The notes beneath the pieces are model-generated. The model was not told the origin of the DNA. It was given only the letters and a program-made list of their open reading frames with translations, and searched no databases. A stretch of DNA of 33,277 nt, taken from Clostridium sp. (lineage in GTDB: Bacteria; Bacillota; Clostridia; Lachnospirales; Lachnospiraceae). The stretch is from positions 8,827 to 42,103 of the forward strand of contig JAMPEW010000005.1 in the NCBI GenBank assembly GCA_023664775.1, written 5' to 3'. This document shows positions 15,624 to 33,277 of this stretch, one piece after another. The first letter of the stretch is position 1. Each line of letters begins with the position of its first letter. The position numbers and the translations under genes are program-made.

Positions 15624-16868
15624 ATGACAAGGATAGACATTATATCAGGATTTTTAGGAGCAGGAAAAACAACGCTTATCAAAAAGCTCATTAATCAGGT
15701 GTTTCAGGGTGAAAAGCTTGTGCTCATTGAAAATGAGTTTGGTGAGATAGGCATAGATGGAGGATTTTTAAAGGATGCAGGCATAGAGATAACGGAAATG
15801 AATTCAGGCTGTATCTGCTGTTCCCTTGTAGGTGATTTTGGAACTGCATTAAAGAAAGTAATAGATGAGTATGCACCTGACAGAATTATCATTGAGCCGT
15901 CAGGCGTTGGTAAGCTGTCTGACGTAATAAAAGCAGTGGAGGATGTGAAAGCTTCTGCGGACATTGCTGTAAACAGCGCAACAACGGTAGTTGATGTTTC
16001 CAAATGCAAAATGTATATGAAAAATTTTGGAGAGTTTTTCAATAATCAGGTGGAAAGTGCAGGAACAGTTATTTTAAGCCGTACACAGAATGTTTCTGAC
16101 GATAAGGTGGAAGCAGTGGTTCATATGCTGAGGGAGCATAACAGTGATGCGTCAATTATTACAACGCCGTGGGACGATTTGGACGCAAAGGTAATTCTTG
16201 ATGCTATGGAGCATGCAAATTCGTTGGACAAGATGATAGAGGAAGCTAAGAAAATGGCGGAGCATGAGCACCATCATCACGACCACCACCATGAGCATGA
16301 CGAGCATGAGCACCATCATCACGACCACCACCATGAGCATGACGAGCATGAGCACCATCATCACGACCATGACGAGCACGAGCATCACCACGACCATGAC
16401 GAGCACGAGCACCACCACGACCATGACGAGCACGAGCACCACCACGACCATGACGAACATGAACACCACCACGAGCATGATGAACATGAACATCACCACG
16501 ACCATGATGAGCACGAGCATCATCACCACGACCATGGGGAGAACTGCACATGTGGATGCCACGACCACGACCATCACCACCATGCCGATGATGTATTTAC
16601 AAGCTGGGGCGTGGAGACAAGCATGAAATATTCCGAGGAGGAGATGAAAGCCATTTTGGAGGAGCTTGCAAAGGAGGAAAATGATTGCGGAATTATTCTT
16701 CGTGCAAAGGGCATTGTTTCCTCAAATGAAAATGAGTGGCTTTATTTTGACCTTACTCCGGGCGAGTACGAGATAAGAAAAGGAACTCCTGATTACACAG
16801 GAAAGCTTTGCGTGATAGGAAGCAATCTGAATGAAGATAATATTGCAAAGCTGTTTAAATTAAGTTAA
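15624..16868 (+). CDS. COG0523 (CobW/ZNG1-like) GTPase with histidine-rich repeat region
   Basis: A 414-residue G3E GTPase, a predicted metallochaperone. The Walker A motif SGFLGAGKTT is at 8-17. The metal-binding signature GCICC (C63, C65, C66) follows ENEFGEIGIDG. The G4 position reads SRTQ. Residues of about 212-320 are a low-complexity tract of His, Asp and Glu with about 60 histidines in tandem HEHHHDHDE-type units, ending in a CTCGC cysteine pair and another His run. After it comes the CobW C-terminal domain (GIILRAKGIVSS to the end). The His tract likely binds or buffers zinc or nickel. Context with a Fur-family gene supports zinc homeostasis. Metal identity is inferred, not shown. A GGAGG site precedes the ATG. 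Confidence 0.93.
   Translation: MTRIDIISGFLGAGKTTLIKKLINQVFQGEKLVLIENEFGEIGIDGGFLKDAGIEITEMNSGCICCSLVGDFGTALKKVIDEYAPDRIIIEPSGVGKLSDVIKAVEDVKASADIAVNSATTVVDVSKCKMYMKNFGEFFNNQVESAGTVILSRTQNVSDDKVEAVVHMLREHNSDASIITTPWDDLDAKVILDAMEHANSLDKMIEEAKKMAEHEHHHHDHHHEHDEHEHHHHDHHHEHDEHEHHHHDHDEHEHHHDHDEHEHHHDHDEHEHHHDHDEHEHHHEHDEHEHHHDHDEHEHHHHDHGENCTCGCHDHDHHHHADDVFTSWGVETSMKYSEEEMKAILEELAKEENDCGIILRAKGIVSSNENEWLYFDLTPGEYEIRKGTPDYTGKLCVIGSNLNEDNIAKLFKLS
16258..16581 (+). repeat. Tandem repeat encoding His-rich region
   Basis: Inside the GTPase gene, two near-identical 42-base units encode HEHHHHDHHHEHDE. A 30-base unit and five 27-base units encoding HEHHHDHDE variants follow, then a partial unit. Codons CAC/CAT, GAC/GAT and GAG are used almost exclusively. 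Units keep the frame (multiples of 3), so slippage would change the number of histidines without breaking the gene. Confidence 0.92.
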
Positions 16869-16894: not shown

Positions 16895-17857
16895 ATGAAT
16901 AGAAATGATGAAATTGAAGAAATACCCGTGTATATGTTTCTTGGATTTCTTGAGAGCGGAAAGACAACATTTGCAAAGGAAACCTTGATAGACAGAGGCT
17001 TTACGGAGGGTGAGCCTACGCTTCTTTTAGTCTGCGAGGAGGGAATTGAGGAATATGATGAGGAGGATTTGAAAAAGAGGAATATATTTACTGAATATAT
17101 TGACGAGACAAATCTTAACACGGAGTATCTTCTTGATTTACAGGATAAATATAAGCCTACAAGAGTTATGATTGAATATAACGGAACATGGAAGCTTGAC
17201 AAGCTGTTTGGAATAAGGGTTCCAAAGGGCTGGACGGTTGTACAGGTTATTTCCTTTGTTGATGCCACAACCTTTGATGTGTATATTGCCAACATGAAGG
17301 CAATGATGATTGAAGCCATGTCCGCTGCTGACATGATAATATTCAACAGATGTGATGAAACTACAAGACGGGCTGAATACAGAAGAAGTATCAAGGCTGT
17401 CAACAGAAGGGCGCAGGTTATATTTGAAAATAAGGACGGTCTTGCAGAGCTTGATAATTCGGAATTGGATTTGCCTTACGACATAAACAAATCGGTAATA
17501 GAGCTTGAGGATGACGACTTTGGAATATTTTACATTGATGCCTGCGATAATCCCGATAAGTATGTCGGCAAAAAAGTACAGTTTAAGGCTATGGTTCACA
17601 AGCCGAAGGAATATGCAAAAAATGAGTTTGTCCCGGGAAGATTTGCCATGACCTGCTGTGCTGATGACATCGCATTTATCGGCTTTAAATGTTATTTTGA
17701 CGCCGCAAAGGTTTTGAGGGACAGGCAGTGGATTACCGTGACAGGAACAATAGAAAAGGAATTTTATCCTGAATTTGAGGGCGAGGGACCGGTTATTCGG
17801 GCAACAAAGGTTGATAAAGCCAAGCCTGCCGAGGAGGAAGTTGTATATTTTAGCTAA
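16895..17857 (+). CDS. COG0523-like GTPase fused to YcgQ/DUF1980-like C-terminal domain
   Basis: A 320-residue protein with an N-terminal G domain: Walker A GFLESGKTT (17-25), IEYNGTW near 93-99, a VDATTFDVY stretch as in CobW proteins, and the G4 motif NRCD (151-154). The CxCC metal motif of true CobW proteins is absent. Residues of about 215-310 look like the C-terminal domain of YcgQ (DUF1980/TIGR03943): YVGKKVQFKAMVHKP, then GRFAMTCCADDIAFIGFKC with paired C254-C255, then WITVTGTIEKE. In bacilli, YcgQ and COG0523 genes belong to zinc-limitation regulons, so this fusion supports a zinc role. ATG at 16895 is chosen (GAAAGG about 12 bases before); a TTG at 16883 is possible. Confidence 0.85.
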   Translation: MNRNDEIEEIPVYMFLGFLESGKTTFAKETLIDRGFTEGEPTLLLVCEEGIEEYDEEDLKKRNIFTEYIDETNLNTEYLLDLQDKYKPTRVMIEYNGTWKLDKLFGIRVPKGWTVVQVISFVDATTFDVYIANMKAMMIEAMSAADMIIFNRCDETTRRAEYRRSIKAVNRRAQVIFENKDGLAELDNSELDLPYDINKSVIELEDDDFGIFYIDACDNPDKYVGKKVQFKAMVHKPKEYAKNEFVPGRFAMTCCADDIAFIGFKCYFDAAKVLRDRQWITVTGTIEKEFYPEFEGEGPVIRATKVDKAKPAEEEVVYFS

Positions 17858-17870
17858 GGAAGATGACGCA

Positions 17871-18314
17871 TTGGAAAAAACAGGCTATTCAACAGATAAA
17901 AAAAATAAAATATTGGAATGTTTAAAAAATAATGCAGATTCTGACATGACTGTCAAGGATATTGAGGCATATCTCCTGAATCAATTAGACACAAAGGTTA
18001 ATATTGCCACAATATACCGCAATCTGGATAAGCTTGAAAAAAATGGATGCGTATTAAGACATACGGATGAGGCCGGAAATAAATCAACCTATCAGTATGC
18101 AGGCTCAGAAAATAAATGTCACAAGCACATTCATATGAAATGCAGCATATGTGGACAGGTTTATCATATGGATTGTGATTTTATGGAGGAGCTTGAGCGG
18201 CATATGTATGAGCATCATGGCTTCATATTGGAATGTAAAACATCAATGATTTATGGCACATGTAAAAATTGCAGTTCACAGAATTTTGACAACAACGTCA
18301 AAATTGAAACATAA
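17871..18314 (+). CDS. Fur-family metalloregulator (Zur-like by context)
   Basis: A 147-residue ferric-uptake-regulator family repressor. The N-terminal winged helix includes the DNA-recognition region VNIATIYRNLDKLEKNG (44-60). The C-terminal dimer/metal domain has HKHIHMKC with H84, H86 and H88, a CSIC pair (C91, C94) and a second pair CKNC (C131, C134), the structural zinc site of Fur/PerR/Zur proteins. The start is a TTG at 17871: TAAGGAAG, overlapping the stop of the previous gene, lies 8 bases upstream. A longer frame from 17775 lacks a site and would overlap the GTPase gene. Tight coupling to two COG0523 GTPases suggests zinc (Zur), but Fur or PerR cannot be excluded. Confidence 0.92.
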   Translation: MEKTGYSTDKKNKILECLKNNADSDMTVKDIEAYLLNQLDTKVNIATIYRNLDKLEKNGCVLRHTDEAGNKSTYQYAGSENKCHKHIHMKCSICGQVYHMDCDFMEELERHMYEHHGFILECKTSMIYGTCKNCSSQNFDNNVKIET

Positions 18315-29570: not shown

Positions 29571-29835
29571 GTATGAGCAAATTTCGGTGTGAATGGGATT
29601 TTGGTGTGAATGAATTTGTTGTACAGGCAGAAATTTGGCACAAGTGAAATTTAGTATAAATGGAACTTCAATACAAATAAAATTCTAGTATAAGTGAAAT
29701 TCCAGTATGATGAAATTCCAATACAAACGGAATTTTGCTGTAAGTAGTATTAATGCAAGCAAAATTACAGTATGGGCGAATTTTCAATATAAGCGGAATT
29801 TTACTACAAGAATAATTCCAGCAAAACAGATTTGG
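29571..29835 (+). repeat. Array of about 16 degenerate 17-bp tandem units
   Basis: Starting at 29571, the DNA splits into contiguous units of 16-17 bases with approximate consensus GTATAAGTGGAATTCCA. Best-preserved units begin at 29654, 29671, 29688, 29705, 29721, 29770, 29787 and 29804. Each has a purine-rich AAGYGRAA core followed by TTYC. No spacers separate them, and a 17-base period cannot preserve a reading frame. The array ends within 40 bases of the Rpn nuclease start. It may be an iteron-like binding array or a decayed satellite. Confidence 0.8.
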
Positions 29836-29839
29836 GTAA

Positions 29840-29866
29840 CCTCCTGCAGCATTTAGTTAAAGGAGG
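29840..29866 (+). promoter_or_regulatory. Ribosome site with complementary upstream CCTCCT
   Basis: CCTCCT (29840-29845) is the exact complement of the Shine-Dalgarno AGGAGG (29861-29866), with a 15-base loop. Pairing would hide the ribosome site of the Rpn gene. The site itself decides the TTG start at 29874, 7 bases downstream. Confidence 0.5.
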
Positions 29867-29873
29867 AAACCTA

Positions 29874-30896
29874 TTGAAAAACAATGAGAAATCGAAACAC
29901 GACACAAAACAAAAACTGCTCACATGGGAGCAGTGGCAGGAGCTTACAGGTGTACAGGCTGTGATATGGGAATACAGAGATACCGTATTCCGTATGCTCC
30001 TCAGAGATAAGAGAAAGCTTCTTGCACTTTATAATGGCGTAAACGGAACAAATTACGATAACCCTGACGACTTGGAAGTTGTCACGCTTGAAAACGCCAT
30101 TTACATGAGCTGTAAAAATGATGTTGCATGTGTCATAGATTTTACTCTTGATATGTACGAGCAGCAGTCAACGGTAAACCCCAATATGCCGTTTCGATAT
30201 TTGAGATATGTTTCAAGGGTATTTGAAAAGCTTACGGTATATGATAATATTTATTCGAGGAAATTAATTAAGCTTCCAACACCCAAGTTTATCGTATTTT
30301 ACAACGGAAGCGAACCACAGCCTGAATGTAGGGAATACAGGCTGTCGGATGCATATATGACAAAGACGGAAAAAGTAAACCTTGAGCTTATCGTAACACA
30401 GCTTAATATCAATGAGGGTTACAACAGTGCGTTAATGGAGAAATGCCCTGATCTTTGGGAATATATGCAATATGTTTCAAAAATCAGGGAATATAATAAG
30501 GATATGCCCCTTGAGGAAGCTGTGCCAAAGGCTGTTGATGAATGTATCAATGAAGGAATATTAGAGGAATTTCTTTTGCTAAATAAGGCGGAGGTAGTGA
30601 GTATGAGTATATTTGAATATGATGCGGAATTACATATGAAGTTGGAACGTGCGGAGGCTTTTGAGGATGGACGTGCAGAGGGAATGGAAGATGGCGAAAC
30701 GAAAAAGCTTATTACACTGATTTGCCGCAAATTAAGAAAATTGAAGGAGGTAGATGTTATAGCCGAGGAGCTAGAGGAAGACTTTGCGATTATATCAGAA
30801 ATATGTAGAGCCGCCGAAACCTATGCACCTGATTATGATGCAGAGCTTGTATATGAAGCCTATAAGAAACTGGAAGATATAAAGGACTTGATATGA
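29874..30896 (+). CDS. Rpn family PD-(D/E)XK nuclease (recombination-promoting nuclease/putative transposase)
   Basis: A 340-residue member of the Rpn/transposase_31-like group, whose E. coli members are DNA endonucleases that promote recombination. The N-terminal half carries the nuclease core: DTVFRMLLRDKRKLLALYN, then a strand with D89 (VIDFTLDMYEQQST), where E96-x-Q98 replaces the usual E-x-K and is typical of this family. KFIVFYNG follows. The C-terminal part is helical and acidic with a typical FEDGRAEGMEDGE segment. The TTG start at 29874 follows AAAGGAGG by 7 bases. It is directly preceded by the 17-bp tandem array. It looks full length and intact. Confidence 0.85.
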   Translation: MKNNEKSKHDTKQKLLTWEQWQELTGVQAVIWEYRDTVFRMLLRDKRKLLALYNGVNGTNYDNPDDLEVVTLENAIYMSCKNDVACVIDFTLDMYEQQSTVNPNMPFRYLRYVSRVFEKLTVYDNIYSRKLIKLPTPKFIVFYNGSEPQPECREYRLSDAYMTKTEKVNLELIVTQLNINEGYNSALMEKCPDLWEYMQYVSKIREYNKDMPLEEAVPKAVDECINEGILEEFLLLNKAEVVSMSIFEYDAELHMKLERAEAFEDGRAEGMEDGETKKLITLICRKLRKLKEVDVIAEELEEDFAIISEICRAAETYAPDYDAELVYEAYKKLEDIKDLI

Positions 30897-31620: not shown

Positions 31621-32549
<929 letters not shown>

Positions 32550-32560
32550 AAAAACACTTT

Positions 32561-32586
32561 GTTTGAAAAAGTGTACTTTTTCGAAC
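32561..32586 (+). other. Left candidate crossover site (inverted site IR-L)
   Basis: Twelve-base half-sites GTTTGAAAAAGT and, on the other strand, GTTCGAAAAAGT (11 of 12 identical) flank a 2-bp core GT at 32573-32574. This matches the 26-bp dyad layout of Hin/Gin-type sites. It begins 12 bases after the recombinase stop. It could also form a hairpin, but there is no GC in the stem to make a good terminator. Confidence 0.75.
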
Positions 32587-32762
32587 AAAAGTAACAGAAA
32601 CATTACATATTCGTTATAATATCATTATGAACAAATTATTTCAAGTGTTTATAAGACATTCATAAAAAATCGACAGAAAACTGAGGATATTCCAACAATT
32701 GTGAGCACCATAACCGATTGTCTGAAAGATATTTTTCCCCTATTTTTTAATTATGAAAAAGT
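32575..32762. other. Predicted invertible promoter segment
   Basis: The 188 bases between the two cores hold no gene. Promoter content is described in the separate promoter entry. The segment would flip between the two states by recombination at IR-L and IR-R. As sequenced, its better promoter points left. Confidence 0.6.
32615..32644 (-). promoter_or_regulatory. Promoter inside the invertible segment, pointing left
   Basis: On the minus strand, TTGAAA (32644-32639), 17 bases, then TATTAT (32621-32616). Each hexamer is one base from consensus. An overlapping plus-strand TATAAT (32615-32620) has only GTAACA 18 bases upstream. After inversion, the stronger promoter would point at the surface protein gene. 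Confidence 0.6.
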
Positions 32763-32776
32763 ACACTTTTACAAAA
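32751..32776 (-). other. Right candidate crossover site (inverted site IR-R)
   Basis: Half-sites TTATGAAAAAGT and, on the other strand, TTTTGTAAAAGT flank core AC at 32763-32764. The 16-base GAAAAAGTACACTTTT (32755-32770) is the exact reverse complement of 32567-32582 in the left site. The cores GT and AC are reverse complements, so the two sites are in inverted orientation. Confidence 0.75.
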
Positions 32777-32861
32777 AACATTATGAATGAAAGGAGGCTA
32801 GATGGTTATCGGACAAGGCAACAGACGTTCATATATTTCCATGGAAATAGGAGGAACAAAA

Positions 32862-33277
32862 ATGAAAAGGAGTTTAAAAAAGACGTTTGCAGCTGTGTTA
32901 TCAGCAGCGGTAATGTTTAGCTCTATTACACCTGTGAATGTATTAGCTGCCCCAAGTGACGACTGTATGCATACTAGGAAAAATGTTAATGCAGAGGCAG
33001 GAACAGATTGCAATACACAGGGAACAATAGCTCACTGGCATTGCGATGAGTGTAGTAAAGATTTTGATGCAGAGATTGGTGGAAACGTGCTTAGTGAAGA
33101 TGATCTGAAAGGAGAGTTCGGAGCGCATACTCTTGGAAGCCTTGTTGCTGGAGAGGCAGGAACAGACTGTGAGCACGAGGGAACGGTAGACCACTATACC
33201 TGCTCAACATGTAACAAGAATTTTGCTGACGACCAGGCAGCAGAGGAGCTTGATAGCATAAGCGACGGAACATTCGG
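32862..33277 (+). CDS. Secreted Cys/His-repeat surface protein, N-terminal part (partial)
   Basis: The frame is open to the window end, with 138 codons visible. Signal peptide about 1-30: positive start MKRSLKKT, hydrophobic core, then VLAAPS. Two repeats of about 48 residues follow: AEAGTDCNTQGTIAHWHCDE with CSKDF, and GEAGTDCEHEGTVDHYTC with STCNKNF. Each has a C-x(5-10)-H-[WY]-x-C-x2-C-x-K-x-F pattern, suggesting a zinc-ribbon-like fold. Such repeats are found in secreted proteins of gut Firmicutes, so a cell-surface protein is likely. AGGAGGA lies 6 bases before the ATG. An in-frame ATG at 32802 also has an AAAGGAGG. Function is unknown. Confidence 0.8.
   Translation, partial: MKRSLKKTFAAVLSAAVMFSSITPVNVLAAPSDDCMHTRKNVNAEAGTDCNTQGTIAHWHCDECSKDFDAEIGGNVLSEDDLKGEFGAHTLGSLVAGEAGTDCEHEGTVDHYTCSTCNKNFADDQAAEELDSISDGTF

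Follow-up and report, generated by a model that had tools for sequence, protein, structure and literature searches.

A probable promoter inversion switch, with its own serine recombinase, upstream of a secreted-protein gene in a Clostridium sp.

Serine recombinases of the Hin/Gin/Cin group act on dyad sites that have an asymmetric 2-bp core and lie in inverted orientation. Mpi of Bacteroides fragilis is likewise a serine recombinase, which flips promoter segments between inverted repeats associated with surface features, and serves as the master enzyme for 13 regions (PMC4747536 and PMC5903667, in excerpt). Wild-type Hin requires Fis and an enhancer (PMC4817059, in excerpt). In Clostridioides difficile, the CwpV switch inverts 195 bp ahead of a gene for a clostridial cell-wall protein, and a terminator model has been given for its OFF state; its promoter is outside the inverted segment (PMC2784873, in excerpt), and its recombinase, RecV, is tyrosine-type and encoded elsewhere (PMC5903667, in excerpt). 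In 2026, csrA-tldR loci in Flavonifractor plautii and relatives were described as having inversions of about 120 bp on the 3' side of 'hin'; at these loci a small recombinase lies immediately upstream and the promoter segment just 3' of it is inverted between related loci (PMC13418256, in excerpt).

The locus analyzed here lies in a 33,277-nucleotide stretch of DNA from a Clostridium sp. (the window), and reads from left to right as a recombinase, a GT-core dyad, a segment, an AC-core dyad and a secreted-protein gene (Table 1). By analogy, it would function like the Mpi-type promoter switches and the hin-csrA-tldR invertons. It shares with Hin, Gin and Cin the serine recombinase and the inverted dyads with asymmetric 2-bp cores, but its segment is 190 bp long and its recombinase is encoded outside the segment; we infer that so short a segment leaves little room for a Fis enhancer. 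It differs from Mpi in that its exact site occurs at one locus only, and from CwpV, which it resembles in inversion length and in preceding a clostridial surface-type gene, in carrying its promoter match inside the segment and a recombinase of the serine type alongside. The small recombinase followed directly by a promoter segment recalls the csrA-tldR invertons, whereas the secreted protein downstream, the longer segment and a promoter match of vegetative rather than FliA type set the locus apart from them; csrA, tldR and flagellin genes were not recognized by eye among the next ORFs, of which the first encodes the secreted protein.

Table 1. Positions of the features of the putative switch, numbered from the first nucleotide of the window.
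Feature	Position	Strand	Remarks
Small serine recombinase, 203 aa	31938..32549	+	PF00239 Resolvase, 3.9e-28
Possible leftward transcription stop	32548..32589	-	Site-1 hairpin, then T-rich tract read leftward; stem -12.9 kcal/mol
Candidate crossover site 1	32558..32589		Dyad, core GT 32573-32574; also 15-pair hairpin; kept in G014 and G036
Predicted invertible segment, core to core	32575..32762		Core centres 190 bp apart, or 18.1 helical turns at 10.5 bp each
Weaker rightward promoter-like match	32591..32620	+	GTAACA-N18-TATAAT, 10/12 bases; overlaps leftward -10
Promoter match of the segment, facing left	32616..32644	-	-35 TTGAAA 32639-32644; TG extended -10 TATTAT 32616-32621
Candidate crossover site 2	32751..32776		Dyad, core AC 32763-32764; from sequence and inverted match
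Secreted-protein gene, cut by window end	32862..33277	+	Signal-peptide-like start MKRSLKKTFAAVLSAAVMFSS

The recombinase carries the serine recombinase catalytic motif, with YGYxRVS (one variable position) and an invariant DRLGR among nine aligned homologues. Its ATG is preceded by a ribosome-binding site, AAAGGAG, and an alternative GTG start at 31920 is also open. Among solved structures, it matches the Tn552 bin3/Sin group best (1.7e-38), followed by gamma-delta resolvase (3.6e-28) and then by the DNA-invertase structures 4m6f (3.5e-21) and 3uj3 (1.8e-20), which we take to be Gin; entry 2r0q is presumably Sin. The name given by the depositors of the Tn552 bin3/Sin structure includes 'DNA-invertase bin3'. 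With the NCBIfam model for Mpi, the window recombinase reaches 39.3 bits, below the model's cut-off of 272. The initial annotation had called on Hin, Gin and Mpi, and the statement that the enzyme works like Hin or Mpi is better supported than the statement that it is one of them, its sequence being nearer to Tn552 bin3/Sin and gamma-delta.

The secreted-protein gene has a ribosome-binding site (GGAGG, 32850-32854); the ATG listed in Table 1 is its likeliest start, with an in-frame ATG at 32802 also possible. On the same contig (locus L023), the gene runs into a stretch of N soon past the window end. Elsewhere in the window, positions 29832-30896 encode a protein that by eye resembles the Rpn/PD-(D/E)XK family and is without a Pfam or NCBIfam match; a relative of it was found downstream of the switch in genome G036 (L025). 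The protein encoded at 15624-16868, presumably a CobW-type GTPase, carries a long His/Asp/Glu repeat tract and is followed by a second gene of that type and then by a Fur-like regulator (17775-18314); the three are possibly a metal chaperone cluster.

The two dyads, their GT and AC cores and their 190-bp separation, as initially annotated, are confirmed in the sequence. Each core is the reverse complement of the other, which makes the two sites inverted. The 26-bp site 1 begins 12 bases past the recombinase stop, again as described. Its arms, GAAAAAGT and ACTTTTTC, are perfect over 8 bp each, and the dyad extends to the 15-pair stem of Table 1 if G-T pairs are allowed. Site 2 is a less perfect dyad than had been claimed, with seven of the eight positions paired between GAAAAAGT and ACTTTTAC. 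The two sites match each other in inverted orientation over 24 nt at 92%, and the 16 exact bases claimed earlier lie within this match. When the 3' flank was dinucleotide-shuffled 1000 times, the inverted-repeat score of 18 was never reached, the highest value being 14. The motif GAAAAAGTNNACTTTT, without mismatch, occurs in the window's genome (G000; 60 contigs, 95.9% complete) solely at these two sites, and with one mismatch at two more single places, which is not above a reversed control pattern. A shufflon built on further exact site copies in this genome was considered and rejected, the motif scan having given none. The 18-base core of site 1 had no matches in the viral contigs.

Between the sites, the leftward TTGAAA-N17-TATTAT of the initial annotation stands, at 32644-32616 on the minus strand, and the fuller match TTGAAA-N17-TGA-TATTAT is kept, facing left, in the window and in both G014 and G036. 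As a conserved consensus match it is a candidate promoter that points away from the secreted-protein gene; by arithmetic, inversion would place it at 32693-32721, facing right. The claim that the switch is mainly off agrees with this leftward match, with the caveat that rightward matches exist both in the window, where the initial annotation lists none, and in G014, where the rightward match is nearly as strong (8.9 vs 9.8). Such matches could leak in the present state and count against a fully OFF switch. In addition, the site-1 hairpin may stop leftward transcription: T makes up 8 of the 10 bases after the stem, read leftward, in the window, 8 of 10 in G014 and 6 of 10 in G036. This stop is tentative, because a strict terminator scan of the region called none and only 23 of 58 strong family hairpins have a leftward tract.

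The features of the locus suggest the following mechanism. The recombinase would bind the two dyads, bend the 190-bp segment into a loop and bring the sites together, after which cutting at the 2-bp cores and rejoining after rotation would complete the exchange. With GT and AC as cores, the ends can pair again only when the joining is inverted, and the segment would therefore flip rather than be lost. As sequenced (OFF), the promoter would face the recombinase end and its transcript may stop at the site-1 hairpin; once flipped (ON), it would face right, RNA would start about 130 bases before the secreted-protein gene, and the gene would thus be phase-variable.

A recombinase match at E 1e-20 was found in 13 of 37 genomes of the genus; half of the 37 are less than 90% complete or more than 5% contaminated. 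Recombinases at least 93% identical are limited to three of the 37, namely the window genome, G014 and G036. All three carriers have the site motif with at most one mismatch, and the other 34 genomes do not; the dyads are thus never absent where this recombinase is present. The segment interiors of G014 and G036 are 86.5% and 74.4% identical to that of the window, in the same orientation. DNA similarity between the window and G014 stops at 32775, inside site 2, while that between the window and G036 continues to 32897, into the signal peptide, and the start region and signal peptide of the secreted protein are similar in G036. By eye, the downstream proteins of the window and G014 differ in their N-terminal parts, and their ends and the next genes are alike; the G014 protein at this position ends in tandem YTYYFQGDGTAM-type repeats. 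The clade thus shows conservation and co-occurrence of recombinase and sites. A flipped copy was not found among its three genomes, which share one orientation, so that the predicted inverted orientation is missing from the window's own clade but does appear in the wider recombinase family.

An all-against-all comparison of family loci brought out some whose collinearity is broken only by a reversed stretch immediately 3' of the recombinase gene. For instance, L077 and L100 are 87% identical over 4.6 kb, with the segment interior matching at 84.3% reversed vs 51.2% forward. The corresponding values are 85.3% vs 48.6% for L053/L054 and 68.0% vs 44.9% for L063/L065. Among high-scoring site pairs, 11 of the 36 segment pairs with similar interiors are in reversed orientation, a count that excludes L077/L100 and whose 11 pairs are not independent events, as five share L054 and the match in some spans no more than 38 to 57 bp. 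L097/L111 as a whole shows a weak flip (52.2% reversed vs 47.5% forward), with a 46-bp block reversed at 85%, and the best promoters of these two loci face opposite ways. The L054 segment is reversed relative to those of L042, L044, L053, L059 and L060, in all five of which site 1 lies within a hairpin of 19-25 pairs that is absent in L054; inversion may therefore also make or break a terminator in this group. The L042 recombinase is 73% identical to that of the window, and this family appears to include the csrA-tldR type of locus. By eye, the order at L042:3899-8573 is recombinase, TnpB/TldR-like, CsrA-like and flagellin. The L042 locus holds a second recombinase, and orientation results that picked it up were excluded.

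How far the arrangement extends was assessed in scans with the nine aligned recombinases, in which the 80 top-ranking genomic loci (of 583) and the 80 top-ranking viral-contig loci (of 163) were retained. The family recombinase is present in 65 of 391 class genomes (E 1e-40), in 63 of 297 genomes of a second order (1e-50) and in 146 of 392 genomes of the window's order (1e-50), counted by recombinase and not by sites; 229 phage records have a recombinase match at E 1e-5, with 63% identity at best. An inverted repeat scoring at least 13 lies 3' of the recombinase at 43 of 77 genomic loci (0/385 shuffles, 1/76 upstream flanks) and at 6 of 43 viral loci (1/215 shuffles, 1/42 upstream flanks). For dyad pairs, 234 of the 313 loci L026-L338 had a usable recombinase and 3' flank, 79 being dropped by the motif rule, a short flank or duplication; the tally of the pair script is 235 distinct recombinases. 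A high-scoring inverted dyad pair is found 3' of the recombinase at 106 of these 235 loci, vs 1/235 shuffles, and 129 loci have none at the threshold. The threshold score, 25, was chosen after the discovery shuffles and retained for a held-out set, where a somewhat broader motif rule gave 73 usable loci out of 87. Of these 73, 43 have a high-scoring pair; the shuffles belong to the discovery set. In one genome, a near-identical recombinase pair (L256/L257) has no site pair nearby; the two loci are 96.6% identical over 1.6 kb and perhaps belong to a mobile element.

The cores of the 106 pairs are GT/AC or AC/GT in 73, AG/CT or CT/AG in 15, AT/AT in 13 and others in 5. The scan scores the whole pair and requires complementary cores; because pair scans favour or require them, complementary cores are not independent evidence. 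Core type matches that of the nearest recombinase neighbour of less than 75% identity for 81 of the 106 pairs; 2000 permutations averaged 53.5 and did not exceed 70. Of the 106 segments, 65 have their best vegetative-type promoter facing left and 11 have it facing right, with 30 unclear, as scored with a matrix written from consensus frequencies that leaves out the FliA type; the held-out segments divide into 21, 6 and 16, and 64 recombinase loci without a site pair into 14, 19 and 31. Read from promoter direction, the sequenced family copies would thus be mostly OFF. A site-1 hairpin of at least 9 pairs is present in 58 of the 106 segments, with a T-rich tract leftward in 23 and rightward in 8, including 5 that have both; owing to these counts, a transcription stop at site 1 is no general family feature.

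Taken together, the locus is very probably a working, mostly-OFF promoter inverton whose serine recombinase is encoded in cis. It would be a variant of a type already known, and we infer that the window copy itself flips. The initial reading as a promoter switch turned by a serine recombinase is supported, as segments lie inverted in relatives whose sites are built alike. These relatives also bear on a different account, in which the dyads are operators, bridged in a DNA loop by the recombinase or another regulator that controls the promoter, with site 1 doubling as a terminator and nothing flipping. The single orientation of the window genome and both close relatives is what such operators would give, site 1 is indeed a hairpin, and loop-forming repressors equally require whole-turn spacing. 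Nevertheless, in relatives of the same design the segment is reversed although its flanks stay collinear, orientation changing at the sites, and inversions have been published beside related genes (PMC13418256, in excerpt), so that we consider this account improbable. Slighter still is the chance that the gene is a leftover transposon or plasmid resolvase and the dyads a deletion or cointegrate-resolution system. The structure ranking, with Tn552 bin3/Sin and gamma-delta ahead of other DNA-invertase entries, would fit a resolvase, as would the self-complementary core AT of 13 of the 106 family pairs, which cannot alone enforce inversion; but the window sites stand in inverted orientation and have asymmetric cores, inspection of the window ORFs by eye recognized neither plasmid nor transposon genes, and a plasmid collection yielded a single weak recombinase match. 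Over all family site pairs, the core AT, which by itself cannot enforce inversion over deletion, occurs in 21 of 149.

What is new here is that the family site spacings fall on whole helical turns. The core spacing is within 2 bp of a 10.5-bp multiple in 91 of 106 discovery pairs (counts that include L065 at 99 bp, a mis-centred value), where about 48% is expected, and in 37 of 43 held-out pairs. Discovery spacings are lacking at 118-122, 129-133, 140-143 and 151-155 bp; the held-out set has one spacing of 118 and one of 155. When each 75%-identity cluster is represented by a single locus (n=46), 38 of 46 are within 2 bp and R is 0.664, a signal reached by none of 5000 smoothed null sets, and the best period is 10.6 (bootstrap 5-95% 10.35-10.7). 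When distinct spacings are each counted once, none of 20000 random sets reaches the signal. Held-out loci less than 75% identical to the discovery set, one per cluster, repeat it (20/25, R = 0.60, p about 1e-4), and low-scoring pairs have no phasing (n=85, R = 0.12, p 0.31). Phasing is weaker at spacings of at least 165 bp, the range of the window (R 0.28 to 0.57 by clustering, n 4 to 13); the window's 190 bp compares with 188 and 198 bp in its relatives.

Whole-turn spacing fits sites that have to meet on the same side of a DNA loop that is both short and stiff. A looping repressor would fit equally well, which is why the flipped pairs matter. Haykinson and Johnson reportedly described helical phasing in Hin looping. 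A whole-turn rule for natural invertible segments was not found among the papers listed in a search of the open-access literature, from which no absence from print is claimed; section 11 of PMC13418256 gives no site-spacing rule. A wider proposition, which we offer tentatively and hold to be rather doubtful at present, is that a clostridial family of short serine-recombinase switches operates enhancer-free by looping 84 to about 200 bp directly, that selection holds their length to whole turns and so to the same rotational face, and that they form a portable module placed before many unrelated genes.

The same switch module does precede unrelated genes. A downstream gene was found for 102 of 106 segments by choosing the earliest plausible ORF, a choice that may be mistaken in some of them. 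These 102 first genes are diverse, and their families include, among the 25 commonest of 104, TnpB/Cas12f-like (9), zinc ribbon (6), SPFH (4), helicase (3), CsrA (3), acyltransferase (2) and von Willebrand A (2); by eye, many encode secreted proteins. L042, L044, L053, L054, L059 and L060 have a TnpB-type first gene (by eye) and spacings of 113-115 bp. At L077, L097 and L111, the downstream genes are by eye the starts of large helicase-like genes. PADLOC returned single defence-type matches among the 102 proteins, to HKD+Snf2, DrmD and PLD helicase (member unnamed), which hint at phase-variable phage defence.

Site 2 might, besides flipping, serve as a joining point at which the recombinase, or homologous exchange ending there, swaps the downstream gene. 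In 13 of 46 comparisons, which form three groups (L026/L027 with L027/L028; L090/L101/L104/L211; and L033 and L034 vs L233 and L035, with L034 also vs L039), DNA similarity through recombinase and segment breaks off 2 to 19 bp beyond the first base of the core of site 2. In L090/L101, about 2.3 kb upstream of the recombinase end is kept at 82% and the two part 2 bp after that base. On the other hand, comparisons inside one group are not independent, 24 of the 46 run more than 100 bp past site 2, including that of the window with G036 (134 bp), eight end before site 2 and one ends 26 bp after. The genome is without another exact site copy as a partner, and a functional boundary alone could set where similarity ends, so this additional role is unlikely.

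The whole-turn rule, replicated in the held-out set, is a simple signature that could help the sequence-only discovery of such switches, and it raises the physical question of how a serine recombinase joins two sites that are closer than the stiffness length of DNA. For the Clostridium sp. itself, the locus probably puts a secreted protein under phase switching, and it belongs with a recombinase family that is widespread among gut-type clostridia.
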